Below, piece by piece: positions 1-33,336 of a stretch of DNA of 33,336 nucleotides. How positions within the stretch are numbered: the first letter of the stretch is position 1; each line of letters starts with the position of its first letter. Both the position numbers and the translations under genes were made by a program. The stretch is from Candidatus Sumerlaeaceae bacterium (GTDB lineage: Bacteria > Sumerlaeota > Sumerlaeia > Sumerlaeales > Sumerlaeaceae): contig JAOAAY010000038.1 of the NCBI GenBank assembly GCA_026418615.1, forward strand, positions 1 through 33,336. Direction: 5' to 3'. Under the pieces are notes generated by a model. That model saw only the letters and a program-made list of their open reading frames with translations. It searched no databases and was not told the origin of the DNA.

Positions 1-1059
1 GGCGTCAGCGCAGGAAGCCTCGCCGCCGCTTGGTACTGCGTGAACTTCGACCAACGCGCCGACCCGGCCTTCTTCGAGCGGTTCAAGGACTCCATGGCGC
101 TGAACCTCCAGTGGCGCAGTTACGGTCACATGGTCGTCTTTCCCCCGCTGGCCCTCCAACTGCTGGCCACCGGCGTAACTCGGACGGATTTTCTGGCGAA
201 CGAGATCGAACGCGTGCTCGGGCGTCCCGCCACTTTCGATGACCTGCGGGCGGCCGAGGCGCGGCCCGAAAACCCCGCCCCCATTCTGATTACCAACGGC
301 ACCATTTACAATACGGGCCAGCGTCTCGTGATGTCCAACCTGCCCGCCAGCCGCTTCCCGGCGCCGCTGGCCGACTCGCGTTTGCGAATCGCCTCCCAGG
401 GATCGGGCATGCGGGCTCTCATAGACCTCATGCAGCCGCTGGCCTTTGAGGATTTCGGCAGCGACATCGGTTCCTTCCGCGTAGCACACGCCGTGGCCGC
501 CAGCGCAGCCTATCCTATCGTGCTGGCCCCGTTCCGACTGAAAGTGTACCCGCAGAATGTCCCCCAAACCAGTGCCGGGCGCGTCTCACCGCAGTTGCTC
601 GAATCGCCCTGGATCCATGTGGCCGATGGCGGTCTCGTCGAGAATGAGGGCGTGGATGCGCTCATCAGTCTCCTCAAAACCCTCGACCGCAACCAGCCCG
701 TGCTGCTGATCGTCATACAGGCCAATTTCCGGCTTGAAACAAAAAAGGTGGACCGCAACGAAATCTGGGGGCCGCTGGATGTCATCTACCGCATGTACGA
801 CATCGGCACGCTCAGGCCGCTGGCGCTTTACGATGCCCATGTCGCACAGTTCCATAACCCAGCCGCGCTCGAAGCAGTCGTGATCCGGCTGGAGGGTTAC
901 GACCCGGAAACCAACAATCTGCTGCGCCGGATCCCGACGGCATTCAAGTTGTCGCGCGAACACCGCGAGGCCATTGACGCCGCGGCAGTGCAGAATGTGG
1001 CCTACATGACGCCGGCGCTCCAGGCTGCCATTGTGCGTCTGTCGCGAGGCCGAAAATGA
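1..1059 (+). CDS. Patatin-like phospholipase, 5' end outside the window
   Basis: Patatin-family serine acyl hydrolase acting on lipid esters. The reading frame is open from base 1, and its first residues read GVSAGSLAAAWY. This contains the GxSxG nucleophile elbow, so the catalytic Ser is encoded at bases 7-9 and the true start lies left of the window. The partner Asp of the patatin Ser-Asp dyad is in the DGG motif of HVADGGLVENEGVDAL (near base 620). Both catalytic elements are therefore present and only the oxyanion-loop N-terminus is cut off. An internal GTG at base 40 is not a credible start because it would remove the nucleophile. The stop is 11 bases from the end of the convergent phosphohexomutase gene. 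Whether the lost N-terminus carries a signal peptide cannot be seen, so the cellular location is unknown. The family call is firm; the substrate is not. Confidence 0.85.
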   Translation, partial: GVSAGSLAAAWYCVNFDQRADPAFFERFKDSMALNLQWRSYGHMVVFPPLALQLLATGVTRTDFLANEIERVLGRPATFDDLRAAEARPENPAPILITNGTIYNTGQRLVMSNLPASRFPAPLADSRLRIASQGSGMRALIDLMQPLAFEDFGSDIGSFRVAHAVAASAAYPIVLAPFRLKVYPQNVPQTSAGRVSPQLLESPWIHVADGGLVENEGVDALISLLKTLDRNQPVLLIVIQANFRLETKKVDRNEIWGPLDVIYRMYDIGTLRPLALYDAHVAQFHNPAALEAVVIRLEGYDPETNNLLRRIPTAFKLSREHREAIDAAAVQNVAYMTPALQAAIVRLSRGRK

Positions 1060-1070
1060 CGCCGGATCGT

Positions 1071-2525
1071 TCAGCCGAACAGGAGTTTCGCCCCCGCTGA
1101 CAGGATGCGCCGAACGCGCGCATCGGTGTCCGCGGCCACATAAATGCGCGCCAAAGGCTCCGTATCGCTCAGACGCATCAGCATCCAGCCGCCGCCTCGG
1201 AAATAGAATTTGATGCCGTCAATCAGGCTCACCCGCTCCGTGTGAAGCCCGGCAATGCGGTCGGGCGGAGCCTCACACAGCACCGCAAAGTTTTCCCGCA
1301 GGCGGTCCATGTCGCCATAACGGTCTATGCGCCCGTAGGCAAAGGGACCCGTCTCGCGGCGCAAACGGGCCACCTCCTGCGCAATGGACCGGCCTGACGC
1401 GCCCAACATTTCGATGAGCAACAGGCAACTGAGCACGCCGTCGCGCTCCGGCATGTGGCCATGATACCCAAAACCGCCGCTCTCCTCGCCGCCGATCACC
1501 ACTTCCCGCGCGATCATCTGCTCGCAGACATTCTTGAACCCGACAGGCACCTCCACAACCTGCCGGCCCTCGGACGCGGCCAGTTTGTCCACCGTGTCGG
1601 CCATCGAGGTCGTGCGCACCACATCCCCGCGCCAGCCGCGCGTACGAACGAGATGCCGGAACAAAAGGGGCATCAGATCATGCAGTTGCACGAAATGGCC
1701 CGCCCCGTCCAAAACCCCAAAGCGGTCGGCATCGCCGTCCGTGGCCAGTCCAAGGGCGGCGCGTTCGCGCCGGATGAGTCCGACCTGATCCGCAAGGTTC
1801 GACAGAATCGGTTCCGGACCGTGCAGTCCCCCGAACCCCGGATTGGCCGTGTCATTGAGCGTGACGACATCGAGGCCCAAGCGCCGCAGAAACACATCCA
1901 CCGTGCCGCGGCCGGCGCCATACATGGGGTTGAACACAATCCGGCCGCGAAACCGGCGGATGGCCGCCAAATCAACAAAACCCTCCACTTGCCGCCAGTA
2001 GGCAGGCATGAAATCGGTTTTCCGGATTCGCGCTGGCCGCTCCGCCGACCAAACCGCGCCGTCCGCGATGGCGCGCAGAGTTTGCTCTACCGCACGAGTC
2101 ATCTCGGGCATAGCCGGGCCGCCGTACGGCCCCTTGAATTTGACGCCGTTGTACACCGGGGGATTGTGGCTCGCGGTCACCATGAGACCGGCGTCAAGGC
2201 GACGCCGGCGCACAAAAAGCGACAGGGCTGGCGTCGGGCAGTGGCCGGCAGTCAGATGGACCTCGGCGCCCGCCTCCGAAGCCGCACCGGCCGCAGCGGC
2301 GGCAAACTCGGCAGAGAGGAACCGGGTGTCGTACCCAATGGCGATGACTGGAGTTGCTGTGCGCCCGTCAGCGGCAAGGTGGCGTGCCAATGCTCGGGCC
2401 ACGAGGCGGACATTGTCAAATGTAAAGGCGTCGCCAATAATCGCCCGCCAACCGTCCGTTCCAAAACGCGGCAGCGGCACACTCGGCGACACGGCGGCTG
2501 GCGTTGATACGCGGCGGGGGCTCAT
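1071..2525 (-). CDS. Phosphoglucomutase/phosphomannomutase family protein
   Basis: Alpha-D-phosphohexomutase that interconverts hexose 1- and 6-phosphates through a phosphoserine. All four family signatures are present in order: FGTDGWR near residue 21, the catalytic TASHNPP loop with Ser119, the metal loop DGDADR at 263-268, and the sugar-binding GGEESGG around 345-351. A C-terminal phosphate-binding stretch (RLSDTEP) follows. At 484 residues it has normal four-domain length. The ATG overlaps the stop of the upstream small gene (ATGA, bases 2522-2525), so the two are probably translationally coupled and co-transcribed. Glucose, mannose and glucosamine phosphates cannot be told apart from sequence alone. 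Proximity to nagB makes an amino-sugar or cell-envelope role possible, but that is inference. Confidence 0.93.
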   Translation of the reverse strand: MSPRRVSTPAAVSPSVPLPRFGTDGWRAIIGDAFTFDNVRLVARALARHLAADGRTATPVIAIGYDTRFLSAEFAAAAAGAASEAGAEVHLTAGHCPTPALSLFVRRRRLDAGLMVTASHNPPVYNGVKFKGPYGGPAMPEMTRAVEQTLRAIADGAVWSAERPARIRKTDFMPAYWRQVEGFVDLAAIRRFRGRIVFNPMYGAGRGTVDVFLRRLGLDVVTLNDTANPGFGGLHGPEPILSNLADQVGLIRRERAALGLATDGDADRFGVLDGAGHFVQLHDLMPLLFRHLVRTRGWRGDVVRTTSMADTVDKLAASEGRQVVEVPVGFKNVCEQMIAREVVIGGEESGGFGYHGHMPERDGVLSCLLLIEMLGASGRSIAQEVARLRRETGPFAYGRIDRYGDMDRLRENFAVLCEAPPDRIAGLHTERVSLIDGIKFYFRGGGWMLMRLSDTEPLARIYVAADTDARVRRILSAGAKLLFG

Positions 2526-2839
2526 GCGCGGCGGCGGTCGTGCAGTTGTGCAAGGGTATAGTCGAGGCCGTAAACCTGCTTCAGTCCCGCGATGCGCTGG
2601 CGCGTCTCTGCCGACAGGCGCCCGCCCTTTTCGGCGAACGCATTGGAGCCCTCCATGGCGGCCATGAAGACCTCCTCAATGAGTTCGCCAAGCGACACAT
2701 CGCGCAGTTCGGCAAGGCCCTTCATGACCTTCACCAGACGCGGCTCGAGCCTCACGCCTACCAGAATCCGCTTGGGCGTCGCCGGCGATTGCCGCTCCGC
2801 GGCGCGCCGTCCCGCACCCTGCTGCCTGCCACCCCTCAT
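2522..2839 (-). CDS. Small ribbon-helix-helix-like protein coupled to the phosphohexomutase
   Basis: A 105-residue protein with a basic, Gln/Ala-rich N-terminus. A segment near residues 24-62 (KRILVGVRLEPRLVKVMKGL onwards) looks like a beta-strand followed by two helices, as in ribbon-helix-helix proteins. A conserved-looking tail, YGLDYTLAQLHDRR, follows. I recognise the general type of short conserved bacterial protein but no assigned function. Its TGA overlaps the ATG of the downstream phosphohexomutase by four bases, which suggests co-expression. The start has only a weak GTGAGG-like ribosome site. It could be a DNA-binding autoregulator or simply a small conserved protein; the DNA-binding role is inferred from the fold pattern only. 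Confidence 0.6.
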   Translation of the reverse strand: MRGGRQQGAGRRAAERQSPATPKRILVGVRLEPRLVKVMKGLAELRDVSLGELIEEVFMAAMEGSNAFAEKGGRLSAETRQRIAGLKQVYGLDYTLAQLHDRRRA

Positions 2840-3080
2840 GCCTCACCGCCTCGCTGATGGAACTTTAGGTTTGTAATGCGTTAATTTGATAGCACCGCTC
2901 GGGCATGACAAGTGAAAACTTGAAGCCGGATTGCAGGCCGGCACCTGCGCCTTTCGCTGTGAAGTCCCGGCGGAATGCCGGGCCGGGGCGTTAGCGGCCT
3001 GTTCAGCCATTGACGGCACCGGCCGCACGCGGCAGCGTCTGAAACCCGAGGCACTCACCAAGGGCAGGAGGATGATCCCC
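2840..3080. other. Divergent intergenic region with a small GC hairpin
   Basis: A 241-base gap between the divergent small RHH-like gene and the EutN-type gene, which must hold both promoters. It contains a perfect 6-bp hairpin at 2966-2982 (CCCGGC, 5-base loop, GCCGGG) with no T-run. The stretch nearest the minus-strand gene (about 2860-2900) is AT-rich. I could not fix a convincing -35/-10 pair on either strand. Confidence 0.4.
3066..3071 (+). promoter_or_regulatory. Ribosome binding site that decides the EutN start
   Basis: A perfect AGGAGG lies directly against an ATG at 3072, too close to serve it, but nine bases before the GTG at 3081. The family's N-terminus (M-Y-L-A-x-V-I-G) begins exactly at that GTG, so the GTG is the start. 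Confidence 0.75.
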
Positions 3081-3407
3081 GTGTATCTGGCGCAGGTCAT
3101 TGGCAAGGTCGTCTCAACGGATAAAATGGACTCCTATGCGCAAAAAAAACTGCTGCTCGTCCAGAAACTCGACCTTCGGCGCAACCCAAGCGGCCTCAGC
3201 ACCATTGCCATTGATTATGTAGGGGCTGGAGAGGGCGACATCGTCCTCGTTGGCGCGGCTCCCGGTCTCGCCTCCACCGTGTTCAAGGTGCCGCGCGCAC
3301 CCATGCGCGAACTTGTCATGGGAATCGTTGACCGCGTCTCCACCTCCACGGGCACGGATTTTGGCAACAGCGTCCGGACCGACGCCGGGGCTCAACCAAG
3401 CGACTGA
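3081..3407 (+). CDS. EutN/CcmL-type microcompartment vertex protein, orphan
   Basis: Shell pentamer family (BMC-P) that caps the vertices of bacterial microcompartments. Starting at the GTG at 3081 gives 108 residues beginning (M)YLAQVIGKVVSTDK, the canonical EutN/CcmL opening. It is followed by KLLLVQKLD, AIDYVGAGEGDIVLV and a final MGIVDRV strand, all standard for the family. A longer reading from 2931 adds about 50 residues that do not resemble the family. The C-terminal tail after residue 90 is longer and Ser/Thr-rich. No BMC hexamer gene, signature enzyme or encapsulation peptide is visible in this window, so the protein stands alone among unrelated genes. Its 3' end overlaps the convergent gene at 3392 by 16 bases. 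The fold is confident; participation in a microcompartment is uncertain. Confidence 0.85.
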   Translation: MYLAQVIGKVVSTDKMDSYAQKKLLLVQKLDLRRNPSGLSTIAIDYVGAGEGDIVLVGAAPGLASTVFKVPRAPMRELVMGIVDRVSTSTGTDFGNSVRTDAGAQPSD

Positions 3408-4162: not shown

Positions 4163-4388
4163 CTTGCTGCGCCACTACAGGGCAAACGCAAAGTTGCGTC
4201 AATCGGATCGTGGCATCTTCCCATGGACCGGCACCGGAACATTTGACGGGAATTTCTGAAAAAAGGCCTTGATACCCCGCGGCTGATGCACCAAACTGTA
4301 AAAAAATGAAGCAAGATAGCAGATAAGCGCGATTTTGTTGTTGACTTGCACCGGCTTCATTCAAAAACGAGCGCCTCGTCAGCAATTC
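4163..4388. other. Divergent intergenic region upstream of the ROK regulator
   Basis: A 226-base gap between divergent genes. It is clearly more AT-rich than its surroundings from about 4250 to 4385, as expected for promoter DNA. A TTGACT at 4341-4346 could be a -35 element for the plus-strand operon, but no good -10 sits 16-18 bases downstream. No operator palindrome stood out. Confidence 0.35.
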
Positions 4389-5726: not shown

Positions 5727-6542
5727 ATGGAAGTCATCATTGCGAAGGACCGTACGGAACTCGCAGAAATCGCCGCCGGTATCATCCGGGCGCAGATTCT
5801 CGCCAAGCCCAACTGCGTGCTGGGTCTGGCCACCGGCAGCACCCCCGAGGAAACTTACGCCCGCCTCGTCCGTTATCACAAGGAGGAAGGCCTGAGTTTC
5901 GCCAAGGTCACAACCTTCAACCTCGACGAGTACATTGGCCTCCCGCCGTCACACGAACAAAGTTACTATTACTTCATGCACGACCGGCTTTTCAACCATG
6001 TCGACATCAACGAGGAAAATGTCCATGTGCCCATGGGTATGGCGCCGGATCCGGACGCGTTCTGCAAATGGTACGAAGAGCAGATCGAGAAGGCCGGCGG
6101 CATTGACCTGCAGTTGCTGGGCATCGGCGGCGACGGCCATATCGCCTTCAACGAGCCGGGCTCCTCGCTCGCCAGCCGCACCCGCGTCAAGACCCTCACC
6201 GAGCAGACCATCAAGGACAACGCCGAGTTGTTCTTCGGCAAGGGCAAGGAGGACGAGGTTCCCAAGTTTGCCATCACCATGGGCGTCGGCACGATTCTCG
6301 AGGCCCGTCGCCTGCTGCTGATCGCCTTCGGCAAGCGCAAGGCCAAGATCGTCAAGCAATTGATCGAAGGACCGGTGACGAGCATGGTGACCGCCAGCGC
6401 CCTGCAGTTGCACCCCGACGCCATCGTAGTCATTGACGAGGAGGCCGCGGCCGAACTCGAACTCAAGGACTACTACAAGTGGGTTTACAAGCAGAAGAAC
6501 GCCGAGTACCAGAAGACCCTCGACCGGCTCGCCGGCCGCTAA
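5727..6542 (+). CDS. nagB: Glucosamine-6-phosphate deaminase
   Basis: Converts glucosamine 6-phosphate to fructose 6-phosphate and ammonia, the committed step of amino-sugar catabolism in the cytoplasm. The 271-residue protein has the phosphate-binding LGLATGSTPE (residues 32-41) and the NLDEY motif with Asp67. It also has GIGGDGHIAFNEPG with Asp136, His138 and Glu143, matching E. coli Asp72, Asp141, His143 and Glu148. Nothing is missing, and length agrees with the family (266 in E. coli). The ATG has a strong AGGAGA site 8-9 bases upstream. It follows a ROK regulator, a standard arrangement for GlcNAc control. Ammonia released here could feed the same nitrogen economy as the amt-glnK pair in this window, but no direct link is visible. 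Confidence 0.96.
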   Translation: MEVIIAKDRTELAEIAAGIIRAQILAKPNCVLGLATGSTPEETYARLVRYHKEEGLSFAKVTTFNLDEYIGLPPSHEQSYYYFMHDRLFNHVDINEENVHVPMGMAPDPDAFCKWYEEQIEKAGGIDLQLLGIGGDGHIAFNEPGSSLASRTRVKTLTEQTIKDNAELFFGKGKEDEVPKFAITMGVGTILEARRLLLIAFGKRKAKIVKQLIEGPVTSMVTASALQLHPDAIVVIDEEAAAELELKDYYKWVYKQKNAEYQKTLDRLAGR

Positions 6543-6659: not shown

Positions 6660-8558
6660 ATGGGAAAGCACCTGCCTGAACTCGACGAGGTACTGAAGAG
6701 CAGCGAACTGGTGGCAGCCGTGTCGCGCGTCAAAAGCGCTCAGCCGGCCGGCAAACCGGTGAGCGATGAACTGCGCAAAAAACTCGAGGAGCACCGCGTG
6801 TGGGCGGCCGACTGGAGCAAGATCCGGGTGGCCGAAAAGTTCAACCCCAACCACGCCTTCGATGTGAAACTGTTTGGCGAATGCTACCTCGGCGCCTTCG
6901 AACCGGGCGAAATCGAGGTGGAGAAAGGCCTCAAACTCACCACCGGCGTTTATAATTCATGCCTCGTCAATGCCGTCGTCGAGGACAACGCCCTTGTGTA
7001 CAATGTCGGACTGCTCTCGAACTATGTCGTCGGAAAGGGCGCCGTCGTGGCCAACTGCAAAAGCGTCACGGCCGTCGCCGGCACCGCCTTCGGAAACGGC
7101 ATCGAACTGCCCATCGCCATCGAGACCGGCGGGCGCGAGGTGCTCTCCTACGCCGACATCACGATCCCCGTGGCCGAAAAAGTGGCCAAAAGCCGCGACA
7201 ACAAGGACCTGCTCGCCGAGTACGAGGCGTTCGTCAAACAGTATGTCGAAGCCGTCACCAGCCCGAAGGGCATCATCGAAGAGGGCGCCCGGGTCGTCAA
7301 TACGGGCAAAGTGTTCAACGCCTACATCGGGCCATACGCCGTCGTGGACAATGCCAACAAGGTGGCCGAGGCGACGCTCCTCTCGAACAAGGACGAGAAA
7401 ACCGAGGTTCTCGACGGCGCATGGGTTTCCAAAAGCATCCTGCAGTGGGGATGCGAGGCGGCCTCCATGGCGATCGTGCAGGAGAGCGTCTGCACGGAGC
7501 ACAGCCATGTGGAGCGCCACGGCAAAGTGACCCAGTCAATCCTTGGCCCCAACACCGGCGTGGCCGAGGGCGAGGTGACCGCCAGCCTGTGCGGGCCGTT
7601 CGTCGGCTTCCACCACCAGTCGCTGCTCATCGCGGCCCTGTGGCCGGAGGGCAAAGGCAATGTCGGCTACGGCGCCAATGTCGGCTCCAACCACACGGGC
7701 AAGGCTCCCGATCAGGAGATTTGGCCGGGCGAGGGCACCTTCTTCGGCTTGGGATGCAACATCAAATTCCCGAGCGACTTCACCGGCGCTCCCTATTCGA
7801 TCATCGCGACGGGCGTGACGGCGCTGCCGCAGAAGGTGAGTTTCCCGTTCTCGCTCATCATCACGCCCGACGCGCCGTATCCGGGCATCTCGCCGGCGTA
7901 CAACGAAATCGCTCCGGCCTGGGTGCTCAGCGACAATATCTTTTCCGTCAAGCGCAACGAGGGCAAGTACACCAAGCGCAACAAGGCCCGCCGGACCAAG
8001 TTCGTGTTCGAGGTCTTCCGGCCCGACATCGTGGACATGATGATCTCAGCACGCGAACGGCTCGCCGGAGTCAAGGAAACGAAAGCCATTTACACCGACA
8101 AGGATGTCAAAGGCCTTGGCAAAAACTACATGAAGGAAGACGCCCGCAAACGCGCCATCGAAGCCTATACCTTCTACATTCAATACTACGCTCTCAACGG
8201 CCTGAAGCGGGTGGTGGAAAAAGCCCTTGCGGAAAATCCCAAGACCGATGTAAACGCCCTTTTGTTGCAGGCCAGTAACGATCCGCGCTGGGAACACGAG
8301 CGGAGCGTGTTGGCAAAGGAATTGCCCGGGAAGGGTGTGGCGGAACTTCTGAGTATGCTCATCGAGCAACAGGAGAAAATCGCCCGCGATGTGCAGTCGT
8401 CGAAAGAAAAAGACGACCATCGCGGCGTCCGCATCATTCCCGACTATGCCCACGCCCATGCGCCCGCGGCCAACGACGGTTTCGTCAAGGAAACTTGGAA
8501 AGTTACGCAGGAACTGAAGGCCAACTGCGAGAAGTTGATCGCTCAGATCAAAGCGTAA
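6660..8558 (+). CDS. DUF4954-family protein
   Basis: A 632-residue protein that I recognise as the uncharacterised DUF4954 family, known from Bacteroidetes and related deep lineages. The middle (residues about 60-450) has the short hydrophobic/glycine periodicity of a left-handed beta-helix (NVGLLSNYVVGKGAVVANCK; GNVGYGANVGSNHTGKA), as in hexapeptide-repeat sugar-nucleotide enzymes. The strongest conservation, from memory of the family, is around GPFVGFHHQSLLIAALWPEG. The C-terminal 150 residues are helical and charged. No signal peptide or membrane segment is present. A GAAGGAAG ribosome site precedes the ATG. Its position 117 bases after nagB on the same strand suggests a role with amino sugars or their nucleotides; this is inference, and no reaction is established. 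Confidence 0.85.
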   Translation: MGKHLPELDEVLKSSELVAAVSRVKSAQPAGKPVSDELRKKLEEHRVWAADWSKIRVAEKFNPNHAFDVKLFGECYLGAFEPGEIEVEKGLKLTTGVYNSCLVNAVVEDNALVYNVGLLSNYVVGKGAVVANCKSVTAVAGTAFGNGIELPIAIETGGREVLSYADITIPVAEKVAKSRDNKDLLAEYEAFVKQYVEAVTSPKGIIEEGARVVNTGKVFNAYIGPYAVVDNANKVAEATLLSNKDEKTEVLDGAWVSKSILQWGCEAASMAIVQESVCTEHSHVERHGKVTQSILGPNTGVAEGEVTASLCGPFVGFHHQSLLIAALWPEGKGNVGYGANVGSNHTGKAPDQEIWPGEGTFFGLGCNIKFPSDFTGAPYSIIATGVTALPQKVSFPFSLIITPDAPYPGISPAYNEIAPAWVLSDNIFSVKRNEGKYTKRNKARRTKFVFEVFRPDIVDMMISARERLAGVKETKAIYTDKDVKGLGKNYMKEDARKRAIEAYTFYIQYYALNGLKRVVEKALAENPKTDVNALLLQASNDPRWEHERSVLAKELPGKGVAELLSMLIEQQEKIARDVQSSKEKDDHRGVRIIPDYAHAHAPAANDGFVKETWKVTQELKANCEKLIAQIKA

Positions 8559-10066: not shown

Positions 10067-13000
10067 TTATGACTTTGACAGCGGTGATGCGAGGATTTCG
10101 ACCCCCGTCACATTGAGCGTCGGCGAACCGAGCGACACATCCACGCGGCCCGTGAGCAGATACGGCCCGCGGGTGAGCGTGCGGGGGGCAAAGCGCTCAT
10201 ACATGCGCGGGAACAAGGTGGCCTCGAAAGTGCCGCTGCGATCCTCAAGGGTCAGCATTTTCATGGGCTGACGGCGGGTCTTGGTAGCCAGTAATTTTGC
10301 GGCAATCAGCCATCCGGCCATGCGCACGCGGCGGCCCGCGTGATCGCGGATGGCCGCGGCGCTCACAACATCGGGGGGAACCTCCACCAGATCAAGGGGG
10401 TGGGCACTGAGCATGAAGCCCAAGGTTTCGGCCTCGTGGCGGCACAGTTCGCGCAGCGACCACGCCGCCGCCACGCCGGCGCCGCCCTCCGGCAAAAGGA
10501 TTTCCGGCCCCGCCAGACCGAGTCCGCCATCCGCCCCGGCGCGGCAGAGCAACTCCGCTTCGAGCATCAGGGCGGGCCGCTGGCGGGCGGCATCGGCCGG
10601 CGCGCCGGCGGCGCGCAGCGCGTCCAAGGCCCCGGCCTTCGCAAGCGCCCGGCACTCCCCCAGGCTCGCACCCGTCCGGCAAATCAAGTCCGCCAGCGAG
10701 CGGTATGGTCCGGCGCGCCGGCGCTGAGCGAGGATGGCCTCCAGCGTTGTGCCGGACAAACCCTTGATAGCCTCCAGCCCCACCCGCACCCAGCCCGCCA
10801 GGCCGCTCCCGCTTGCGCTGCAACCGGTGTAATGTTTTTCTCCGGAATTTATGCACGGCGGCAGCACACTCAACCCCCGGCGACGCGCTTCGCCAAGATA
10901 GGCGTCCGGACCGTAAAACCCCCCGCCATTCGTCAGCACCGCCGCAAAGAACTCCGCCGGATGGTGGGCTTTCAGATACGCCACCTGAAAACTCAGCACG
11001 GCAAAAGCCGCCGAGTGTCCCTTGCAAAATGAATATCCGGCAAAACTGGACATCTGCCGCCAGATCTCGGCTATGTCATCCTCGGCCAGCCCGCGGGCGC
11101 GGGCGCCCGCCAGAAACTTGTCGCGGATGGCCGCCATGGCGTCGCGCGACCTCATCTTGCCGCTCATGGCGCGGCGCAGCAGGTCAGCCTCGCTCAGCGC
11201 CATGCCCGCCACTTCGTGAGCCACCCGCAGCACATCCTCCTGATAAACCATCACGCCGTAGGTTTCCGGCAGAATCCGCAGCATGAGAGGATGCGCGGGC
11301 GCACAGGCATCGCTTGCGCGGGCCGGCTGTCGGCGGGCAGGCGGCGCGACGCGCTGCGACTGGTGGCGCACGATGTACTGCTGCATCATTCCGCTCTCCG
11401 CCACTCCGGGGCGGATGATGCTGCTCGCGGCCACGACCTCCTCAAAATTGCGGCACCGCAGCCGCTCGAATAGCGCCCGCATCCCCGGCGACTCGATGTA
11501 AAAACATCCCATGGTGTCGCCCGCGTGGATGAGGGCGCGGGTGGCCGGATCCGCAGCAATCGCGTCCAAATCGCGGATGCGCTCGCGCAAGGGTCGCGGG
11601 TCGCAAGACGCAGCAACGGCCCCCCGTGGCGACGCTTCGGGCGCGGCCACAATGCCCATGACACCCGCAAGGGCCACACTCGTGCCGCGGCGCGTGCCGG
11701 GAGATTTCATGCGCACAGCCTCGCGCTGGAAGACGGCCGCATCGCCTCCTGCGGCGCAGGCGGATGACGGGGCAGCCGCCGCCCCCTCGCTGTCGGCTCC
11801 CGCACCGCCGCCGCGGCCGTTGGCCTCGCACAGCGCCACCGCGTCGCCCAGCACAGCCAGCGAGCGGTTGCCCAGCAGGTCAATCTTGACCAGCCCCAGA
11901 TCCTCCACGCCGTACATGTCCATCTGCGTGATCACAAAACCCTTGGCACTGCGGGTCAGCGGAACATAATCGGCCACCGGACGGGGACTGATGACAATGC
12001 CGCCGCAATGGATGGAAAAATGGTGGGGAAACCCGGCAATGCGTCCGGCATGGGCAAGGACGGTGCGCCACGGCTCATCCCGGGCGAGGCTGAGACTCTC
12101 TCGCACCGCGTCCACCCCGCTCCCCATGCGGCCGACGCTCTCATCCTGTTCCCCGTCGTCGGGCCGGTCGGCCGTGCCGTCCCATGCGCGCCGGCCCGTG
12201 TCCTCCTCGCAGTAACCAATTTCATGGAGTCTGTTGAAGGCGTCCACCTCGCGCGGCCCCAGTCCCATGGCGCGCGCCGTCTCGCGGATGGCTTGGCGCG
12301 TGCGCAGCGTCGCAATCGTCGCAATCAGCGCCACATGCCCCTCGCCAAAAAACTCGAAGCACCACCGGAGAATGTCGTCGCGCTGGTTCCAGGCAAAATC
12401 CACATCAATGTCCGGCGGCGCGGAACGCTCCGGGTTCAGAAAGCGTTCAAAATATAAATGGTGACGCAGCGGGCACACATCGGTGATCCCCAGCGCGTAA
12501 CTGACAAGGGAATTGGCCGCGCTGCCGCGCCCGAGCGTCGGGAAACCGCGCGCATGAGCCTCAGCCACGATCCGATGCACCAGCAGGAAATAATCGGCAA
12601 ACTGCAGCCGGGTGATGACGCCCAGTTCGTAATCGAGCCGGCGAACCGCGGCCTCGGGCGGCGGCCAGCCGTAGCGGCGCCCCAGCCCCTCCTGCGCAAG
12701 CCGCCGCAGCGTCGCTGCCGCGTCGGCATCCCCCGGCGCAGGATCCATGCGCGGAAACTTCCACTCGCCCAGCGGCAGGCGACAGTCGCACAGCGCTGCA
12801 ATCCGCACAGTGTTGGCGACCCAGTCGGCAGGATCGGGGGAGAAGCCAAACCGTGGAGCAAAGGCGCGGGCGCCGTCGGACTGTAATAGGCCGTTGCGCA
12901 GGCGCAAAAAGGCACACACCGCCTGCTCCGACTGGAAATGCCGGGCCGGATCGAGTCGGTCCTCCTCACGCAGGTGATAGATCGTCGTCAGCCGGCGCAT

Positions 13001-13699
13001 GGCCTGCAGAAGGTCGTGGAGCGGCGCATCGCCGGGCACGGCGACGCACACATCCGCCGCAATCACAAGCGGCAGACCAAGGCGCGCAGCACACTCGTAG
13101 ACGGCGCGGTTGCGTCGCCGCGCGTGGCGCGAGGGCATGAGCGCTCCGAAAACATGCAGCCCAGCCGGGACGCCCGCAGCGGGATTGCATGCAAGCGCCT
13201 CGAGCACCGGCGGACAGTCGCTCAGCACCACCACATCCGGCGGCAACCGCCGACACTCCGCCAGCAGATCAAAACGGTCGTCGAGCATGCGGCGCGTCAC
13301 CAAATGCGAGATGGCCGAATAGCCGGCAAAATTCCGCGCCAGCAGCACCGCCCGCTGATCCGTCCGGCCGGGCCGCAGAGCAAGGGATGTGGAGACCGAG
13401 TCCGCCGGCTCAGCGCCATGACCGGACCCGACGGAGCGCGTGGCCGTCGCGTCGGCAAGCGCCTCCTCGGGCTGGCGCACCTCAGCCCCCAGCAGCGGCT
13501 TGATCCCCTCGGCGGTCGCCGCTTTGTAAAACTCCACCACACCCGACAACGCATTGGTATCCGTCAGCGCCACAGCCGCCGCCCCTTGCCCGGCAGCCAG
13601 CCTCACAATCTCGCAAGGCGCAAGCGTCGAGTCAAAGAAACTGTAATAACTATGGACATGCAGGTGGACAAATCCCGATGCACTCACTGGCGTTTCCAT
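10067..13699 (-). CDS. dnaE: DnaE-family DNA polymerase III alpha subunit, probably the SOS/translesion form
   Basis: C-family DNA polymerase. Starting at the ATG at 13699 (GGGAG site six bases upstream) gives 1210 residues. An N-terminal PHP domain begins with FVHLHVHSYYSFFDSTLAP. The palm shows the catalytic PDIDVDF pair and the third Asp in GLVKIDLLGNRSL. Finger and helix-hairpin-helix regions follow, then a C-terminal OB fold (RMAGWLIAAKLLATKTRRQP onwards). Between the third catalytic Asp and the ATRALIHAGDTMGCFYIESP segment there is an Ala/Gly-rich insertion of about 75 residues, longer than I know in relatives. A LexA box 35 bases upstream suggests damage induction, the behaviour of DnaE2/ImuC. 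No imuA or imuB lies next to it. That it is error-prone, rather than the replicase, is inference from the operator and from divergence. Confidence 0.88.
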   Translation of the reverse strand: METPVSASGFVHLHVHSYYSFFDSTLAPCEIVRLAAGQGAAAVALTDTNALSGVVEFYKAATAEGIKPLLGAEVRQPEEALADATATRSVGSGHGAEPADSVSTSLALRPGRTDQRAVLLARNFAGYSAISHLVTRRMLDDRFDLLAECRRLPPDVVVLSDCPPVLEALACNPAAGVPAGLHVFGALMPSRHARRRNRAVYECAARLGLPLVIAADVCVAVPGDAPLHDLLQAMRRLTTIYHLREEDRLDPARHFQSEQAVCAFLRLRNGLLQSDGARAFAPRFGFSPDPADWVANTVRIAALCDCRLPLGEWKFPRMDPAPGDADAAATLRRLAQEGLGRRYGWPPPEAAVRRLDYELGVITRLQFADYFLLVHRIVAEAHARGFPTLGRGSAANSLVSYALGITDVCPLRHHLYFERFLNPERSAPPDIDVDFAWNQRDDILRWCFEFFGEGHVALIATIATLRTRQAIRETARAMGLGPREVDAFNRLHEIGYCEEDTGRRAWDGTADRPDDGEQDESVGRMGSGVDAVRESLSLARDEPWRTVLAHAGRIAGFPHHFSIHCGGIVISPRPVADYVPLTRSAKGFVITQMDMYGVEDLGLVKIDLLGNRSLAVLGDAVALCEANGRGGGAGADSEGAAAAPSSACAAGGDAAVFQREAVRMKSPGTRRGTSVALAGVMGIVAAPEASPRGAVAASCDPRPLRERIRDLDAIAADPATRALIHAGDTMGCFYIESPGMRALFERLRCRNFEEVVAASSIIRPGVAESGMMQQYIVRHQSQRVAPPARRQPARASDACAPAHPLMLRILPETYGVMVYQEDVLRVAHEVAGMALSEADLLRRAMSGKMRSRDAMAAIRDKFLAGARARGLAEDDIAEIWRQMSSFAGYSFCKGHSAAFAVLSFQVAYLKAHHPAEFFAAVLTNGGGFYGPDAYLGEARRRGLSVLPPCINSGEKHYTGCSASGSGLAGWVRVGLEAIKGLSGTTLEAILAQRRRAGPYRSLADLICRTGASLGECRALAKAGALDALRAAGAPADAARQRPALMLEAELLCRAGADGGLGLAGPEILLPEGGAGVAAAWSLRELCRHEAETLGFMLSAHPLDLVEVPPDVVSAAAIRDHAGRRVRMAGWLIAAKLLATKTRRQPMKMLTLEDRSGTFEATLFPRMYERFAPRTLTRGPYLLTGRVDVSLGSPTLNVTGVEILASPLSKS

Positions 13700-13971
13700 G
13701 GCGGGCTCCCGACACCATTTCCTACCCGCAATACAGAACAAATGTTCTATAAAAAAACAGACCGGACGCCCTCCTCGTGAATCGGGAACCACACCCCCAA
13801 CCGGGAACCGCACCCTTGCAGCCCGCGCCGACCGGTCGTCCGGGAAGTGAATCCATTCCGTCCCTGCGGTGCCGTCGCAGCCCGCCGCCCCGTCGTCAGG
13901 CTCAACGCGCCCTCACCCAACGCCGAGCGCACCGGGCAAGACCACCGCCCTTTCCGCCCCGTAGGCGCTCC
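13700..13971. other. Intergenic region upstream of the DnaE-family gene
   Basis: A 272-base gap between two minus-strand genes. It contains the LexA box at 13735-13748, an A-run (13751-13757), and a 14-bp imperfect direct repeat at 13783-13796 and 13802-13815 (19-base period). No RNA gene or credible short reading frame was seen. It gives the polymerase gene its own promoter. Confidence 0.5.
13735..13748. promoter_or_regulatory. LexA (SOS) box, GAAC-N4-GTTC type
   Basis: The palindrome AGAAC-AAAT-GTTCT matches the Gram-positive-style LexA operator consensus GAAC-RNRY-GTTC at every defined position. It lies 35 bases upstream of the chosen start of the DnaE-family gene and beside an A/T-rich stretch likely to hold the -10 element. 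Known LexA biology makes this polymerase damage-inducible; direct proof would need the host LexA. Confidence 0.75.
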
Positions 13972-25166: not shown

Positions 25167-26525
25167 TCAGGAGGTGTACGCACTCTCGCCGTGCTGCGTC
25201 AAATCGAGACCCATCTGTTCCTCCTCGGTGGTGACGCGCAAGCCCATTGTCAAGTCCAGTACTTTCAAGATCACGAACGAGACAATCACCGTGTAAATGA
25301 CCGTCGCCACGACAGCCACAACCTGCAGGACGATCAGTTTCACGCCGCCGTGCAGCAGCCCCGGATTCGTAACAGCCGAGTTGAGGAACGGCGACGCAAA
25401 AACACCCGTCAGCAAAGCCCCGATGGTGCCGCCCACACCGTGGACACCGAAAGCATCCAAGGCGTCGTCAATGCCCCGCCGCGCGCGCCAAGTGCATGCG
25501 TAGGAACAGACAACACCCGCCACAAGGCCAATGGCAATGCCCGAAAGCGGGCCGACAAAGCCCGCTGCCGGCGTGACAGCCACAAGTCCTGCCACAGCAC
25601 CCGATGCCGCGCCCAGAAGGGTCGGCTTGTCCTTGAATGTCCAGTCCACCAGCATCCAGGCGACGGCTCCCGCCGCAGCCGCGCAGTGCGTGCTGACAAA
25701 CGCCACAATCGCGATCTGGCCGGAACCGAGCGCACTACCCGCGTTGAATCCGAACCAACCAAACCACAGCAGACCCGCGCCCAGGACGGTCAGCACGAGG
25801 TTGTGTGGGATGAACGGCTGGTGCGGGAATCCGCGCCGGGGCTTGATCAAAAGAGCGCACACCAGCGCCGTGAACCCTGATGTGATGTGAACCACCGCAC
25901 CGCCCGCGAAATCGAGCGCGCCGAGTTTCAGCAGCCAGCCTTCGCTGCTCCACACCCAGTGGGCCACCGGGCAATACACCAGCAGCGACCAAATCGCGAT
26001 GAAGACTACATAAGTCTTGAATTTCATGCGCTCGGCGAACGCGCCTGAAATCAGGGCCGGCGTGATGATGGCAAACATGCACTGATAAATCATGAACAGC
26101 CGGTGGGGCACCGTCGTCGCATAAGTCTCGCTCGGAGTCATGCCCACGGCGCGCACCCCGAACCAATCAAGTCCGCCCAGCAACCCCGCCCCGCCAATCT
26201 TGAGCACCGACGGCGAAAACGCCAGCGAGTAACCCACCGTGACCCAAAGCACCGTGATGATGCCCAAGGCGATGAAACTGTGCATGACGACGGAGAGAAC
26301 ATTGCGCGCATGGACAAGTCCGCCGTAAAACAGCGCCAGCGCAGGCGTCATGAGCATCACCAGCGCGGCGCTCACCATCAGGAAGGCCGTGTCGCCAAAG
26401 TTGATGTCCTCCGGCGTCTTGTGGCCCGAAGGCACTCCGCTGCAACCGCTGAGCACGATGGCCGCAACGCCCAGAGTCCAGACAAGTCCGGCGCGACCCC
26501 TCAAAGCATTTGACAAGCGTTTCAA
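25167..26525 (-). CDS. amt: Ammonium transporter with lipobox-like signal sequence
   Basis: Amt/Rh-family ammonium channel with eleven expected membrane helices and both pore histidines: one in DFAGGAVVHITSG, one in DAFGVHGVGGTIGALLTG. Also typical are FYGGLVHARNVLSVVMHS and LLWFGWFGFNAGSAL. A TTG at 26525 (AGGGG four bases and GGAAGGAG twelve bases upstream) is preferred over a GTG at 26603, because it begins a clean signal peptide, MKRLSNALRGRAGLVWTLGV. The peptide runs to AAIVLSGCSG. LSGC fits the lipobox, so the mature N-terminus may be lipidated, which is unusual for Amt. Its own PII gene follows directly. Nitrogen limitation is the likely inducer; no sigma-54 site was found in the 140-base divergent gap upstream. 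Confidence 0.92.
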   Translation of the reverse strand: MKRLSNALRGRAGLVWTLGVAAIVLSGCSGVPSGHKTPEDINFGDTAFLMVSAALVMLMTPALALFYGGLVHARNVLSVVMHSFIALGIITVLWVTVGYSLAFSPSVLKIGGAGLLGGLDWFGVRAVGMTPSETYATTVPHRLFMIYQCMFAIITPALISGAFAERMKFKTYVVFIAIWSLLVYCPVAHWVWSSEGWLLKLGALDFAGGAVVHITSGFTALVCALLIKPRRGFPHQPFIPHNLVLTVLGAGLLWFGWFGFNAGSALGSGQIAIVAFVSTHCAAAAGAVAWMLVDWTFKDKPTLLGAASGAVAGLVAVTPAAGFVGPLSGIAIGLVAGVVCSYACTWRARRGIDDALDAFGVHGVGGTIGALLTGVFASPFLNSAVTNPGLLHGGVKLIVLQVVAVVATVIYTVIVSFVILKVLDLTMGLRVTTEEEQMGLDLTQHGESAYTS

Positions 26526-26743
26526 GAGACCCCTATGCTCCTTCCTCGTTGGGATGAAAAAAGTCCCGCCCTTCAGGCAGGCGCGGTATGGGTGCTGACA
26601 CACATCGTTTCAACAAAAAAATTCTTCCAGTCAATTTAGCATGAGTCACGCATAAACGGAGTTTTGGGTTCTTTTTGACCGCATCGGCGAGCAGGGCAAA
26701 TCTGGATTTTGATGTCTAAGTATAGAGGAGACAATAATCGAAA

Positions 26744-27842: not shown

Positions 27843-27874
27843 AGCCTTGTTTCGTGTTGCTGGGCGGGGAAGGC

Positions 27875-29125: not shown

Positions 29126-30640
29126 ATGGACAGAATCACGGCAATCATCGTGGCAGCGCTTGTTCTCGCCATTCTCACAATCTTTTATGTCATTGCCCGG
29201 ATGTACCGCAAGGTGGGCCCCAATCAGGCGCTCATCATCTACGGCTGGGGCGGCACCCACATTGTCACGGGCGGCGGCGCCATTGTCTGGCCGATGATCC
29301 AGACCGCGCGCGAACTGTCGCTCGAACTCATGAGTTTTGATGTCGCGCCCAAGCAAAATCTCTACACGGTGCAAGGCGTCGCCGTCACCGTCGAAGCCGT
29401 CGCCCAGATCAAGGTCAAGAGCGACCCCGAGAGCATCACAACCGCTGCCGAACAGTTTCTCAACAAGGATCCGCTCGAGCGCGAGGGACTCATCCGGCTC
29501 GTCATGGAAGGCCACCTGCGCGGCATCGTCGGACAGTTGACCGTCGAGGCCATCGTCAAGGAACCCGAGATGGTCTCGGCCAAGATGCGCAGCACTTGCG
29601 CCGAGGACCTGTCGAAGATGGGCCTCGAGGTGGTCAGTTTCACGATCAAGGAAGTGCGCGACCAGAACGAGTACATCGCCAACATGGGGCGCCCGGATGT
29701 CGCGCGCATCCGCCGCGACGCGGATGTGGCCACCGCCGAGGCCGAGCGCGACACCGCCATCAAGCGCGCCGTGTACATGCGCGAGGCTGCTCAGGCCAAA
29801 GCCCAGGCCGACATGGAGCGCGTGCAGGCCGAGACGGCCAGCGCCGCCAAACAGGCGGAGGCCGTCCGGGACCTCGAGGTGAAAAAGGCCGACTATCAGG
29901 CCGCCATCTCGCGCCAGAAGGCTTCCGCCGACAAAGCCTATGACATTCAGGCCAATATCATGCAGCAGCAAGTCATCGCCGAGCAGGTGCGCATCGAGCG
30001 CGTCCGGAAGGAAGAGCAAATCAAGGTGGAGGAGGCCGAGATCCAGCGCCGCGAGCGCGAGTTGCTCGCCACCGTGCTCAAAGCCGCCGAGATCGAACGC
30101 CAGAAAATCGCACAACTGGCCGAGGCCGAGCGGCAAAAACTGGCCATCGAGGCCCAAGGCCGCGCCGAGGCCACCCGTCTCGAGGCTCAGGGCCAGGCCG
30201 ACGCCATCCGCGCCACGGGACTTGCCGAGGCCGACGCCATCAAAGCGAAAGGGTTCGCCGAGGCCGAGGCCATGACGGTCAAAGCCAACGCCTTCCATGA
30301 GTACAATCAGGCGTTTGTCATCGACAAACTCCTGAGCAGCCTGCCGGAGGTGGCGCGCGCCATCAGTGAGCCGCTGCGCAATGTGGACCGCATCACCGTC
30401 CTCAGCACGGGCAACGGCTCCAACGCCGGCCTCGACAAGGTCACGGGCGACATCGGAAAAATGATTGTCCAGATCCCCGCGCTGTTCGAGACGCTCGCGG
30501 GCGTGGATCTCAAGCAACTGCTCGAACGCGTGCCGCAGATTGGTGAAAAGGCGGCTTTCGAGAAGGGCACGACCGAAAAAACCGCCGGCCAGACGACACC
30601 GGGTTCCGCCGATCCCAGCAAAAACCCACCACCAGCCTGA
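29126..30640 (+). CDS. floT: Flotillin (SPFH-domain membrane scaffold)
   Basis: A 504-residue flotillin that organises functional membrane microdomains. An N-terminal membrane segment (ITAIIVAALVLAILTIFYVI) precedes an SPFH/band-7 domain (about 30-210, GPNQALIIYGWGG; EVVSFTIKEVRDQNEYIANM). A long charged coiled coil with the flotillin Glu-Ala repeats follows (about 215-400, AEADAIKAKGFAEAEAMTVK), then a C-terminal oligomerisation region and a Pro/Thr-rich tail. Length matches B. subtilis FloT (about 509). The ATG has a strong AAGGAGAG site. The neighbouring NfeD-like and PspA genes make an envelope-maintenance operon. No N-terminal acylation signal other than the membrane segment is visible. 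Confidence 0.95.
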   Translation: MDRITAIIVAALVLAILTIFYVIARMYRKVGPNQALIIYGWGGTHIVTGGGAIVWPMIQTARELSLELMSFDVAPKQNLYTVQGVAVTVEAVAQIKVKSDPESITTAAEQFLNKDPLEREGLIRLVMEGHLRGIVGQLTVEAIVKEPEMVSAKMRSTCAEDLSKMGLEVVSFTIKEVRDQNEYIANMGRPDVARIRRDADVATAEAERDTAIKRAVYMREAAQAKAQADMERVQAETASAAKQAEAVRDLEVKKADYQAAISRQKASADKAYDIQANIMQQQVIAEQVRIERVRKEEQIKVEEAEIQRRERELLATVLKAAEIERQKIAQLAEAERQKLAIEAQGRAEATRLEAQGQADAIRATGLAEADAIKAKGFAEAEAMTVKANAFHEYNQAFVIDKLLSSLPEVARAISEPLRNVDRITVLSTGNGSNAGLDKVTGDIGKMIVQIPALFETLAGVDLKQLLERVPQIGEKAAFEKGTTEKTAGQTTPGSADPSKNPPPA

Positions 30641-30680
30641 ATGAGATGATGCCGATGAGTTGCGCCTTGCTCAGCAGAGT

Positions 30681-30718
30681 CCCGCCCGCTCCCGCGCCCG
30701 ACCGCGGCGCGGGGCGGG
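30681..30718 (+). other. GC-rich hairpin in the flotillin-pspA gap, first
   Basis: A perfect 8-bp stem (30691-30698 with 30706-30713) around a 7-base loop, extended by outer CCCGC/GCGGG pairing to 30681 and 30718. No T-run follows. Together with the hairpin at 30771 it could tune pspA expression relative to flotillin or protect the upstream mRNA. Confidence 0.5.
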
Positions 30719-30770
30719 TCGCCGACGCAAAGCCCGCCAGACCGGCCATGCGCGGGGCAGCGATCCCACA

Positions 30771-30788
30771 GCGGGCGGCAACGCCCGC
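30771..30788 (+). other. GNRA-capped hairpin in the flotillin-pspA gap, second
   Basis: A perfect 7-bp GC stem (30771-30777 with 30782-30788) is closed by a GCAA tetraloop, a very stable RNA fold. It ends 28 bases before the pspA start codon, so it could influence ribosome access or block 3' exonuclease decay. Confidence 0.5.
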
Positions 30789-30816
30789 CCCACGATGAGC
30801 CACGAAAGGCACGACC

Positions 30817-31491
30817 ATGAGACTCCTTGAACGCGTTGCCGCCCTCATCAGGGCGAATGTGGCGGACTTGCTCGACCAGTCCGACGATCCGGAGCACATG
30901 CTGTCGCTGGTCCTGCAAGACATGAACAGCCAATTGATTCAGGTGAAAACGGCCGCGGCACAGGCCCTCGCGGACGAGCACATGTTGAGCCAGCGCCTCG
31001 AGTCGGCCCGCGCCGAGGCCGCCGCGTGGCTCGAGCGCGCGGGCGCCGCCGTGGACACCGGCAACGACACCGCGGCACGCGCCGCCCTCGAACGCCATAA
31101 TTCCTTTATGCAGACGGTGGCCGAACTCGAATCGCTCATCGAGCGCACACGCCGCGAGATGGAGGACTTCAAGCGCGTGCTCGTGCAACTCGAAACACGC
31201 ATCGGCGAGGTGTCGCGCTCGCGCGATGCCCTCCTCGCCCGCCACCGCCGCGCCGCAGCCCTCGAGAAAATCGCCCAAAGCGGCGCAGACATCAACGCCG
31301 GACGCCTCGAGGAAATCCTGAAAGCCATCGCCGACTCGGCCGAGCAGCGCCACGATCAGGCCGCGGCCCTCAAGCAACTCAACACCGGCGGCCCCGCACA
31401 GGAAATACGCCGGATCGAAGCAGCCGACAAACTCGAACAGCAACTGGCCCAACTCAAAGCCCGCCGCGCCGGGCACGAACCCCCGGGCTGA
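30817..31491 (+). CDS. pspA: PspA/IM30 (ESCRT-III-like) envelope-stress protein
   Basis: A 224-residue, almost wholly helical coiled-coil protein of the PspA/Vipp1 family, which forms membrane-remodelling rods that protect the inner membrane. The N-terminal amphipathic helix and opening (MRLLERVAALIRANVADLLD, then QSDDPEHMLSLVLQDM) are the family hallmark (about residues 1-40). Long Glu/Arg/Ala-rich helices run to about residue 215. Length is typical. The ATG has AAAGG about eight bases upstream. It follows flotillin by 176 bases containing two strong hairpins, and is most likely the last gene of the XRE-NfeD-flotillin operon. No pspB, pspC or pspF is present, so control would not be the enterobacterial kind. 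Confidence 0.9.
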   Translation: MRLLERVAALIRANVADLLDQSDDPEHMLSLVLQDMNSQLIQVKTAAAQALADEHMLSQRLESARAEAAAWLERAGAAVDTGNDTAARAALERHNSFMQTVAELESLIERTRREMEDFKRVLVQLETRIGEVSRSRDALLARHRRAAALEKIAQSGADINAGRLEEILKAIADSAEQRHDQAAALKQLNTGGPAQEIRRIEAADKLEQQLAQLKARRAGHEPPG

Positions 31492-31652
31492 ACACGCCGC
31501 TCGCGCTGGATTCTAAGTAAACCGTTTTTCACCGACAACACGCCCCGCGGCCGATGCCTTGTCCTGCACCCCGTCCCCATGGCGCAAGGGGCTGCAAGGG
31601 AATCCCCGGCGCCCGGCGGGCATGGCCGGATGGCTGCGCTTGATTGCGGCCC

Positions 31653-33287
31653 ATGGTCTCCGATGTGCGCGAAGCCACCGACACAATCCCCCTGCCCGCC
31701 GGCGGCAGCGCAGCCTTTGCGCGCCGCTACTTCCCCCATCTGTGCCGGCGTCCGTTTTGCGCCCTGCACCTTGATTCGTTCGCGCGCTACGACGCGCTGG
31801 CCTCCGGCCCCATCCTCACGCGGACCGGTACGCGCTTCGCCCTCGCCGCGCCCCGCGGCGCCGCCAAGTCCACCATCCACTCGCTCATCCTCCCGCTGCT
31901 CGACCTGTGCCTCGGGCGTGAGCGCCACATCGTGCTGATCAGCGCCACACTCGCGCAGGCGCGCACACGCCTGCGCAACCTGCGTCTCGAACTCGAGCGC
32001 AACGACGCGCTACGCGCCGACCATCCCCGGCTGACCGAGACGGAAAAACCATGGAATCGCCACAGCCTCAGCGCCGCCGGCGCACTCATCGAGGTCTTCG
32101 GCGCCGGCGCAGAGATCCGCGGCATCGGCCACGCGGGCTTCCGCCCCACCAAGATCATCCTCGACGACGCCGAGGACTCGCGCCGCGTGGCCACCGGCCG
32201 CGCCCGGCGCGCCACCGCCGACTGGTATTCTGAAGTCATCGAAAACCTGGGCGACACATACACCCACATCGAGGTCATCGGCACCATCCTCCATCCCCAA
32301 TCGCTACTCGCCACCCTGCTCGCGAGAGCGGACTTCACGGGGCGCCTCTACCGCAGCGTGGAGAGTTGGGCCGACCGCGCCGACCTCTGGGCCGAGTGGC
32401 GCCTGCGGCTGATGGATCCGCTCGATCCCGACCGTCTCGCCACCGCCCACGCCTTCTTCGAGCACCACCGCGGCGAGATGCTCCGCGGCGCGCGCGTACT
32501 CTGGCCCGAACGCGAAGACTACGAAGCCCTCATGATCCAGTGCGCCCTGCGCGGCCGCCGCGCCTTCTTCAAGGAAAAGCAAAACGCCCCGTTCGACGAC
32601 GAAACGCGCCTGTTCCGCACGGCCGAGTGGCGCACTTTTGTCCTGCGCGACGGGTATCTGTGGCCGTGGGTCGAGGCCGGACGCGAAACCGCCGAGGCCG
32701 ACGCCGCGCCCCGACCCCTCGCCGCCCTGCGCGACCTGCAGATCTTCGGTTTTCTCGACCCGGCCATGTGCGAGACCTCGCGCAGCGACTACGCCGCCAT
32801 CGCCACCGTGGGGCGCGATGCCGCCGGCCTGCTCTATGTGCTCGACCTCTGGATGACGCGCGCCACCCCTGAGGCGCAGGTGCGCCGCGCCTTCGACCTC
32901 CACGAGGCGTGGAACTACGCCCTCTTCGGCGTCGAGACCAATCAGGCGCAGCAACTGTTCGCGGCCGAGTTCGAACGCGAACGCCAAGCGCGCCGCGCCG
33001 CCGGACGCCCCTGGCAACTGCCCCTGCATTGCGTCAAACAAACCGCGCCCAAACGCGCACGCATCGCCCGCCTCGAGCACCCCGCCGGCGCCGGGTGGCT
33101 ACTCTTCTCGCGCGAACTGCCCGAAGAGTTCCGCCAGCAGGCTGACGAGTACCCCGGCGGACTCCACGACGACGGCCTCGACGCGCTCGCAGAAGCCGTC
33201 CGCCTTGCCAGCGACACCGCTCCGGCGCCTCAGCCCATCCGCCCCATCCGCCGCATCCCGCCCTGCAAAGGGCTGACAGGCTACTGA
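31653..33287 (+). CDS. Phage-type terminase large subunit
   Basis: A 544-residue DNA-packaging motor with an N-terminal ATPase and a C-terminal RNase H-like nuclease. Walker A is APRGAAKST (about residues 66-74), Walker B plus catalytic Glu is KIILDDAED (167-175), and a coupling GTILH follows. Nuclease acidic residues appear in FGFLDPAMC, GVETN and HDDGLDALAEAV. All motifs are intact, so it is unlikely to be a decayed remnant. The ATG at 31653 is preferred to a TTG at 31644; neither has a strong ribosome site. No small terminase, portal or integrase is seen before it, and the right side is cut by the window. It could begin a prophage or a gene-transfer-agent-like cluster. Codon use and the missing ACGT/AGCT match the chromosome. 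Confidence 0.88.
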   Translation: MVSDVREATDTIPLPAGGSAAFARRYFPHLCRRPFCALHLDSFARYDALASGPILTRTGTRFALAAPRGAAKSTIHSLILPLLDLCLGRERHIVLISATLAQARTRLRNLRLELERNDALRADHPRLTETEKPWNRHSLSAAGALIEVFGAGAEIRGIGHAGFRPTKIILDDAEDSRRVATGRARRATADWYSEVIENLGDTYTHIEVIGTILHPQSLLATLLARADFTGRLYRSVESWADRADLWAEWRLRLMDPLDPDRLATAHAFFEHHRGEMLRGARVLWPEREDYEALMIQCALRGRRAFFKEKQNAPFDDETRLFRTAEWRTFVLRDGYLWPWVEAGRETAEADAAPRPLAALRDLQIFGFLDPAMCETSRSDYAAIATVGRDAAGLLYVLDLWMTRATPEAQVRRAFDLHEAWNYALFGVETNQAQQLFAAEFERERQARRAAGRPWQLPLHCVKQTAPKRARIARLEHPAGAGWLLFSRELPEEFRQQADEYPGGLHDDGLDALAEAVRLASDTAPAPQPIRPIRRIPPCKGLTGY

Positions 33288-33336
33288 GAGCCAGTACCCG
33301 CACGAAACGGAAAACCCTTTACCCACAATCCCAGCC

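Follow-up and report, generated by a model that had tools for sequence, protein, structure and literature searches.

Why should 33,336 nucleotides of bacterial DNA lack a four-base palindrome entirely? The question is raised by contig JAOAAY010000038.1 of a Candidatus Sumerlaeaceae bacterium (GenBank assembly GCA_026418615.1), analysed here over its positions 1..33336 and referred to below as the window, which is contig C54 of the source genome G000. A preliminary description of this DNA had reported that it contains no ACGT, and a scripted count bore this out (0 versus 71.0 expected under a maximal-order Markov model over the 33,336 bases; z -9.8). AGCT is a new second missing word that the description had overlooked, with likewise 0 copies in the window against 71.4 expected under the same trinucleotide-based model. 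Every other tetranucleotide lies nearer to its expectation, the next by z being CGAT with 120 occurrences against 173.6. We consider it fairly likely that the near-absence of both words results from long and strong selection by Type II restriction at both sites.

Absence of ACGT and AGCT from the window and near-absence from the genome

Synonymous codons were shuffled within each gene in 300 rounds, using 11 open reading frames (ORFs) of the window that together span 23,613 bases. The shuffled ORFs contained on average 68 ACGT (range 55-82) and 59 AGCT (range 43-77) as opposed to none of either in the real sequence, which rules out ordinary composition or codon usage as the cause. TGCA, TCGA and GATC fell inside their shuffle ranges in the same ORFs, while CTAG was slightly under its range (2 versus 3-18) and CATG over it (108 versus 58-93). 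The preliminary description had also pointed out that Asp, Asn, His and Tyr are written with NAT before Val despite a preference for NAC elsewhere. In the 11 ORFs this spelling is found without exception, NAY before GTN being NAT in 71 of 71 cases, whereas NAY before other G-starting codons is NAC in 210 of 296. The four examples cited in that description (6862, 7003, 7023 and 7507) do read GATGTG, AATGTC, TATGTC and CATGTG, and all of these NAT-GTN pairs lie in a DUF4954/hexapeptide-repeat gene on the forward strand (6660..8558; PF16314, E 2.1e-52).

The source genome comprises 3.57 Mb in 124 contigs and is 92% complete. We read 68 stretches of it, totalling 1,253,966 bases (1.254 Mb, 35% of the genome), and additionally counted the flanked patterns SSACGTSS and SSAGCTSS and their reversed controls across the whole genome. 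The sample contains 13 ACGT where 3,018 are expected (0.4%), a leftover density of ~10 per Mb, and 31 AGCT where 2,940 are expected (1.1%). Across all of G000, SSACGTSS occurs 13 times versus 1,731 for its control, and SSAGCTSS 10 times versus 2,828. The rest of the genome accordingly does not carry ACGT at a normal frequency, and the absence that had been called complete is so in the window, while a few sites remain in the genome. At this depth, the depletion is confined to these two of the 16 tetranucleotide palindromes; the next lowest in the 1.254 Mb is CTAG at 0.27 of expectation, which is low in G004, a genome of the same family, as well (0.09). As in orthodox Type II site avoidance, which concerns palindromes of 4-6 bp, the under-representation is genome-wide and goes beyond the effects of codon usage and composition. 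A single degenerate site, ASST, is ruled out by ACCT/AGGT, which stand at 1.17 of expectation. Along with CTAG, RTCGAY (0.13-0.23) and CCWGG (0.34) are also scarce in G000; the corresponding G004 values are 0.49-0.63 for RTCGAY, milder than in G000, and 0.26 for CCWGG.

The depletion extends to both genic and intergenic DNA. In an 863 kb sample with script-called genes, the spaces between co-directional genes held no ACGT (76.7 expected) and one AGCT (79.2 expected), convergent spaces no ACGT (15.3) and one AGCT (20.5), and divergent spaces one ACGT (38.5) and five AGCT (32.5). Over the three classes this amounts to 1 ACGT of 130.5 expected and 7 AGCT of 132.2, i.e., the words are avoided at the level of DNA. 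Avoidance at the RNA level is disfavoured, given that intergenic DNA is purged too; a strand test is impossible for a palindrome. Several sites are carried by neighbouring tRNA-Val and tRNA-Thr genes on opposite strands, and this pair may be the source of the higher count in the divergent class.

Surviving sites, tRNA genes and dipeptides

In total, 44 sites remain in the 1.254 Mb, and 10 of these 44 are located within tRNA genes. They occur in 6 of 14 tRNA genes, which all together make up 1,133 of the 1,253,966 bases (0.09%), so that site density is 8.8 per kb in tRNA genes versus 0.027 per kb outside them. One tRNA-Thr gene holds four AGCT. In the control sample from G004, five tRNA genes contained four AGCT and no ACGT. 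The other 34 survivors in G000 are found in 17 of the 68 stretches, partly clustered (L131, L140 and L141) and in some cases within low-G+C patches, while 51 of the 68 stretches have no site at all outside tRNA genes. The G000 assembly yielded no 16S match, so rRNA gave no sites for comparison. A single site thus does not seem lethal in itself, but appears to be removed where nothing retains it.

One of the surviving AGCT sits at the very start of a contig (C84:18), next to a sequence (L070:1-17) that looks like a Nextera transposon/adaptor end; an untrimmed adaptor probably created this one false site. This observation would favour a sequencing or assembly artefact as the source of the whole pattern, an explanation to which we attach practically no weight. 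The absence spans contigs of up to 273 kb in which long open reading frames persist, and codons and dipeptides are adjusted to it, whereas digestion or read loss would break contigs rather than rewrite them.

The adjustment appears to extend to protein sequence. Dipeptides were counted over 335,256 residues in 798 script-called genes, with the single relative G004 as control. Of the 20 X-Leu pairs, Lys-Leu (0.77), Gln-Leu (0.81) and Glu-Leu (0.82) have the lowest values (1.02, 0.98 and 1.07 in G004), and among the 20 X-Val pairs Asn-Val (0.79) and Asp-Val (0.80) do (1.02 and 1.10 in G004). The seven NAY-Val and NAR-Leu pairs, which also include His-Val and Tyr-Val, have a mean rank of 19.9 among the 307 pairs compared with G004, a value reached in none of 100,000 random draws. 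The ranking was not blind, as the seven pairs follow from the codon table but had previously been examined in the smaller 863 kb sample. His-Val is weak (rank 77 of 307), and some pairs without any obvious connection to the sites likewise stand far from their G004 values, among them Val-Gly (rank 1) and Pro-Thr (rank 3).

Ordinary genes of the window conform to the same pattern. Neither word occurs in the metabolic gene nagB, encoding glucosamine-6-phosphate deaminase (5727..6542, forward strand; TIGR00502, E 1.1e-95), or in the ammonium transporter gene amt (25167..26603, reverse strand; TIGR00836, E 1.6e-138). Both are also missing from a DNA polymerase III alpha-like gene on the reverse strand (10067..13813; PF07733, E 1.5e-70), which served to find relatives. 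Four genomes of the family encode homologs with 55-58% identity to it, and three Candidatus Sumerlaeota records contain homologs with 49-53%. A second DNA polymerase III alpha-like gene is present elsewhere in the genome (C33:51717-54116) and shares ~36-39% identity with the one in the window over the matched parts. A large-terminase-like gene lies at the contig end (31644-33287, forward strand), with TIGR01630 barely above and NF033889 beneath the cut-off.

Probable selection against the words and the case for deamination

The preliminary description had proposed a restriction system, another whole-genome constraint or, as its favoured route, a modification whose deamination turned ACGT into ATGT or ACAT. 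A restriction-type constraint on the whole genome is supported; the deamination route is mostly not supported by the tests below, which used the 863 kb sample for codon redistribution, Thr-Tyr and Asp/Asn-Ile, with G004 as comparison. The many ATGT contexts cited in its favour are explained by NAT being the sole synonymous spelling open to Asp, Asn, His or Tyr when Val follows.

Decay of methylcytosine would be expected to turn Thr ACG before T into ACA, Arg CGT after A into TGT or CAT, Ala GCT after A into GTT or ACT, and NAC-GTN into NAC-ATN. Where Thr precedes T, ACG has been lost (it still accounts for 0.321 in G004), and ACA stands at 0.175 versus 0.124 in G004. Proportional redistribution of the G004 Thr codons minus ACG predicts 0.18 for ACA, and ACC and ACT absorbed most of the difference. 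The products of C-to-T change following A show no excess either, be it Cys TGT (0.257 versus 0.253 elsewhere), His CAT (0.352 versus 0.390), Val GTT (0.139 versus 0.155) or Thr ACT (0.074 versus 0.076). Nor is there an excess of NAC before Ile (0.747 versus 0.803 before other A-starting codons) or of AAC before T (0.581 versus 0.682). In the frames A|CGT and A|GCT, in which a C-to-T change offers no synonymous escape, the sites have been lost too, and the Arg and Ala codons are redistributed approximately in proportion. Most of the codon and product tests therefore lack the C-to-T escape seen in Helicobacter pylori ACGT loss. Overall, the purge appears to reflect selection acting against the word as such.

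That 5-methylcytosine (m5C) in ACGT and AGCT deaminated, leaving the sites to decay by mutation alone, is in our view very improbable, although it has a precedent. H. pylori retains 53-295 ACGT per Mb, with changes skewed to ATGT and ACAT, according to the published account (PMC10423294). In G000, ACAT/ATGT are raised to 1.16 of expectation, 1.33-fold over G004, and several codon and dipeptide values point the same way. AGT is raised before T (0.246 versus 0.070 before other bases); however, no other synonym of AGC lies a single step away, and the combined share of AGC and AGT dropped from 0.366 to 0.246. Asp-Ile (1.17) and Asn-Ile (1.08) are raised as well (0.96 and 0.93 in G004), yet there is no preference for NAC when Ile follows. 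The rise of NAG before Phe (0.697 versus 0.599 before other T-starting codons; 0.589 versus 0.558 in G004) and the slight rise of ATG before T (0.81 of the average codon; 0.75 in G004) are unexplained. Against these stand the lack of excess in most C-to-T products, the loss of sites in frames without a synonymous C-to-T escape, and the outcome of a search for PF00145 (m5C) methyltransferases, which returned no match in the 92% complete genome and was positive in 10 of 14 control genomes; such a gene may still lie in the remainder of the genome or have been lost recently.

Candidate enzymes, other genomes and known systems

The relatives of G000 that were tested retain both words. The same-family genome G004 has 1,407 ACGT (1,388 expected) and 1,785 AGCT (1,744 expected) in 400 kb. 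SSACGTSS occurs 256 to 5,555 times in the other genomes of the class, none of the 38 being without ACGT, which rules out the purge as a class trait. SSAGCTSS was counted in 29 genomes besides G000, of which 12 belong to the same phylum; it occurs 36 to 2,347 times in each, and none lacks AGCT. The double depletion is not present in the relatives tested. Among 386 genomes including G000, eight have an SSACGTSS/control ratio below 0.01 as picked by eye from the table (G000, G051, G060, G119, G134, G227, G259 and G356). Direct counts confirm deep loss of ACGT in G259 (0 of 81.8 expected in 84 kb) and G119 (1 of 128.4 in 79 kb), and show milder depletion in the small samples of G060 (3 of 46.4) and G134 (1 of 12.7). 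GATC is reduced to 3 of 319 expected (0.9%) in 93 kb of G024, a genome of the same class. These single-site purges are as deep as those of G000, yet AGCT is retained in G024 (263 of 322), G259 (313 of 354) and G119 (409 SSAGCTSS), unlike in G000. All seven other genomes with a ratio below 0.01 keep AGCT, which leaves one shared mechanism for both motifs unsupported and makes it probable that the words were lost in separate events. Deep purges of a single palindrome recur, so the phenomenon is of a known kind; what is unusual is that two words are purged together and that proteins bear an imprint of it.

Further palindromes are purged in some of these genomes. In the 93 kb of G024 (L144-L163), CTAG is at 4%, GGCC at 5% and CATG at 11.5% of expectation. 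G060 (2.1 Mb) contains no SSTCGASS and two SSACGTSS, and a 100 kb sample of it, at 29% G+C, has 7 of 37 expected TCGA and 3 of 46 expected ACGT.

Under the explanation favoured here, Type II restriction at ACGT and AGCT would long have killed or harmed the cells that carried the sites, and nearly every newly arisen site would have been selected away. The responsible enzymes may still be present but unseen, or may have been lost only recently, and a methyltransferase would have protected the sites remaining in tRNA genes. A restriction enzyme as the selecting agent, two specificities and methyltransferase protection of the tRNA sites are inferred, unlike the depletion itself, its codon and dipeptide effects and the survival of sites in tRNA genes, which were observed. 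If the residue outside tRNA genes (12 of 3,018 ACGT and 22 of 2,940 AGCT) represents a mutation-selection balance, scaled selection would be ~5 per site, enough to purge free sequence and too weak to break tRNA genes.

Several observations weigh against restriction as the cause. Neither a cognate methyltransferase nor a cognate nuclease was found in the searches made. Whole-genome searches of the 92% complete G000 returned no match to PF00145, PF02384 or PF07669, and the five methyltransferase families searched gave a single PF01555 gene and a partial match to PF02086 (D12). In a PADLOC scan of 442 of 643 ORFs (160-600 aa, from 35% of G000; E 1e-6, 1e-8 and 1e-8), none of the first 25 families listed for each batch, out of 158, 28 and 30 matched, was a restriction endonuclease. 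The two systems would both have to lie in the ~8% outside the assembly, to have been lost recently, or to have methyltransferases that evade the families used. Thr-Tyr, which is able to spell ACGT, is not depleted (0.91; 0.87 in G004); this pair has easy synonymous escapes. The depth of the depletion, to our knowledge, also exceeds that of most published cases of avoidance. The PADLOC families listed for G000 ORFs did include type III-A CRISPR parts (Csm3, Csm4, Cas6 and Cas1), a CARF-RtcR-like regulator, AriA and mads-like families; a simple repeat script found no CRISPR array in the stretches read, and hence no spacers as a sample of foreign DNA.

The lack of a clearly fitting methyltransferase, together with the near-complete absence of sites, would suit a nuclease that cuts ACGT and AGCT without a protective partner, the absence of sites serving as the mark of self. 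We regard this as unlikely, given that the survivors in 6 of 14 tRNA genes, such as the four AGCT in one tRNA-Thr, would be cut, and that the nuclease itself was not found. Slightly less probable still is the fuller version in which the lineage restricts both words without a cognate methyltransferase, the tRNA sites are shielded in some other way, and the purge edits the dipeptides of the proteome. The PF01555 methyltransferase gene (C30:25798-26844; L055:5798-6844) adjoins a gene for a 325 aa protein of predicted DHH (RecJ-like) fold (C30:26869-27846; L055:6869-7846), which has no Pfam match and 22 relatives, none of them among viral contigs. The two possibly constitute an undescribed modification-linked pair, and we found no paper in the open-licence literature on a DHH protein paired with a methyltransferase. 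That this pair is itself the system, acting on both motifs, appears improbable to much the same degree.

If restriction is indeed the cause, G000 would represent a natural experiment on restriction-site avoidance near its limit, in which the pressure appears to reach protein sequence and the cost of restriction per site could be estimated and weighed against known functional constraint. Were methyltransferases truly absent, the rule that restriction needs modification would be in question. The open-licence literature yielded no paper on a double ACGT/AGCT purge, on such enzymes without a cognate methyltransferase, on a dipeptide imprint or on the sparing of tRNA genes.

Two described systems come closest. 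In H. pylori, loss of ACGT is ascribed to an m5C methyltransferase and C-to-T-skewed escape (PMC10423294). It resembles the present case in its motif, its strong depletion and its variation between lineages; it differs in that G000 is left with far fewer ACGT per Mb, has no m5C enzyme that we could find and shows no general C-to-T bias. In orthodox Type II systems, site avoidance rises with residence time, lost systems leave traces, and a site counts as under-represented once its ratio is 0.78 or lower (Rusinov et al., 2015; PMC4687349). G000 departs from these cases in having two motifs at ~0.4% and 1.1% of expectation and in that the cognate enzyme was not found. What it shares with them is the depletion of short palindromes throughout the genome, of a kind that is associated with long residence and can outlast the system that caused it.
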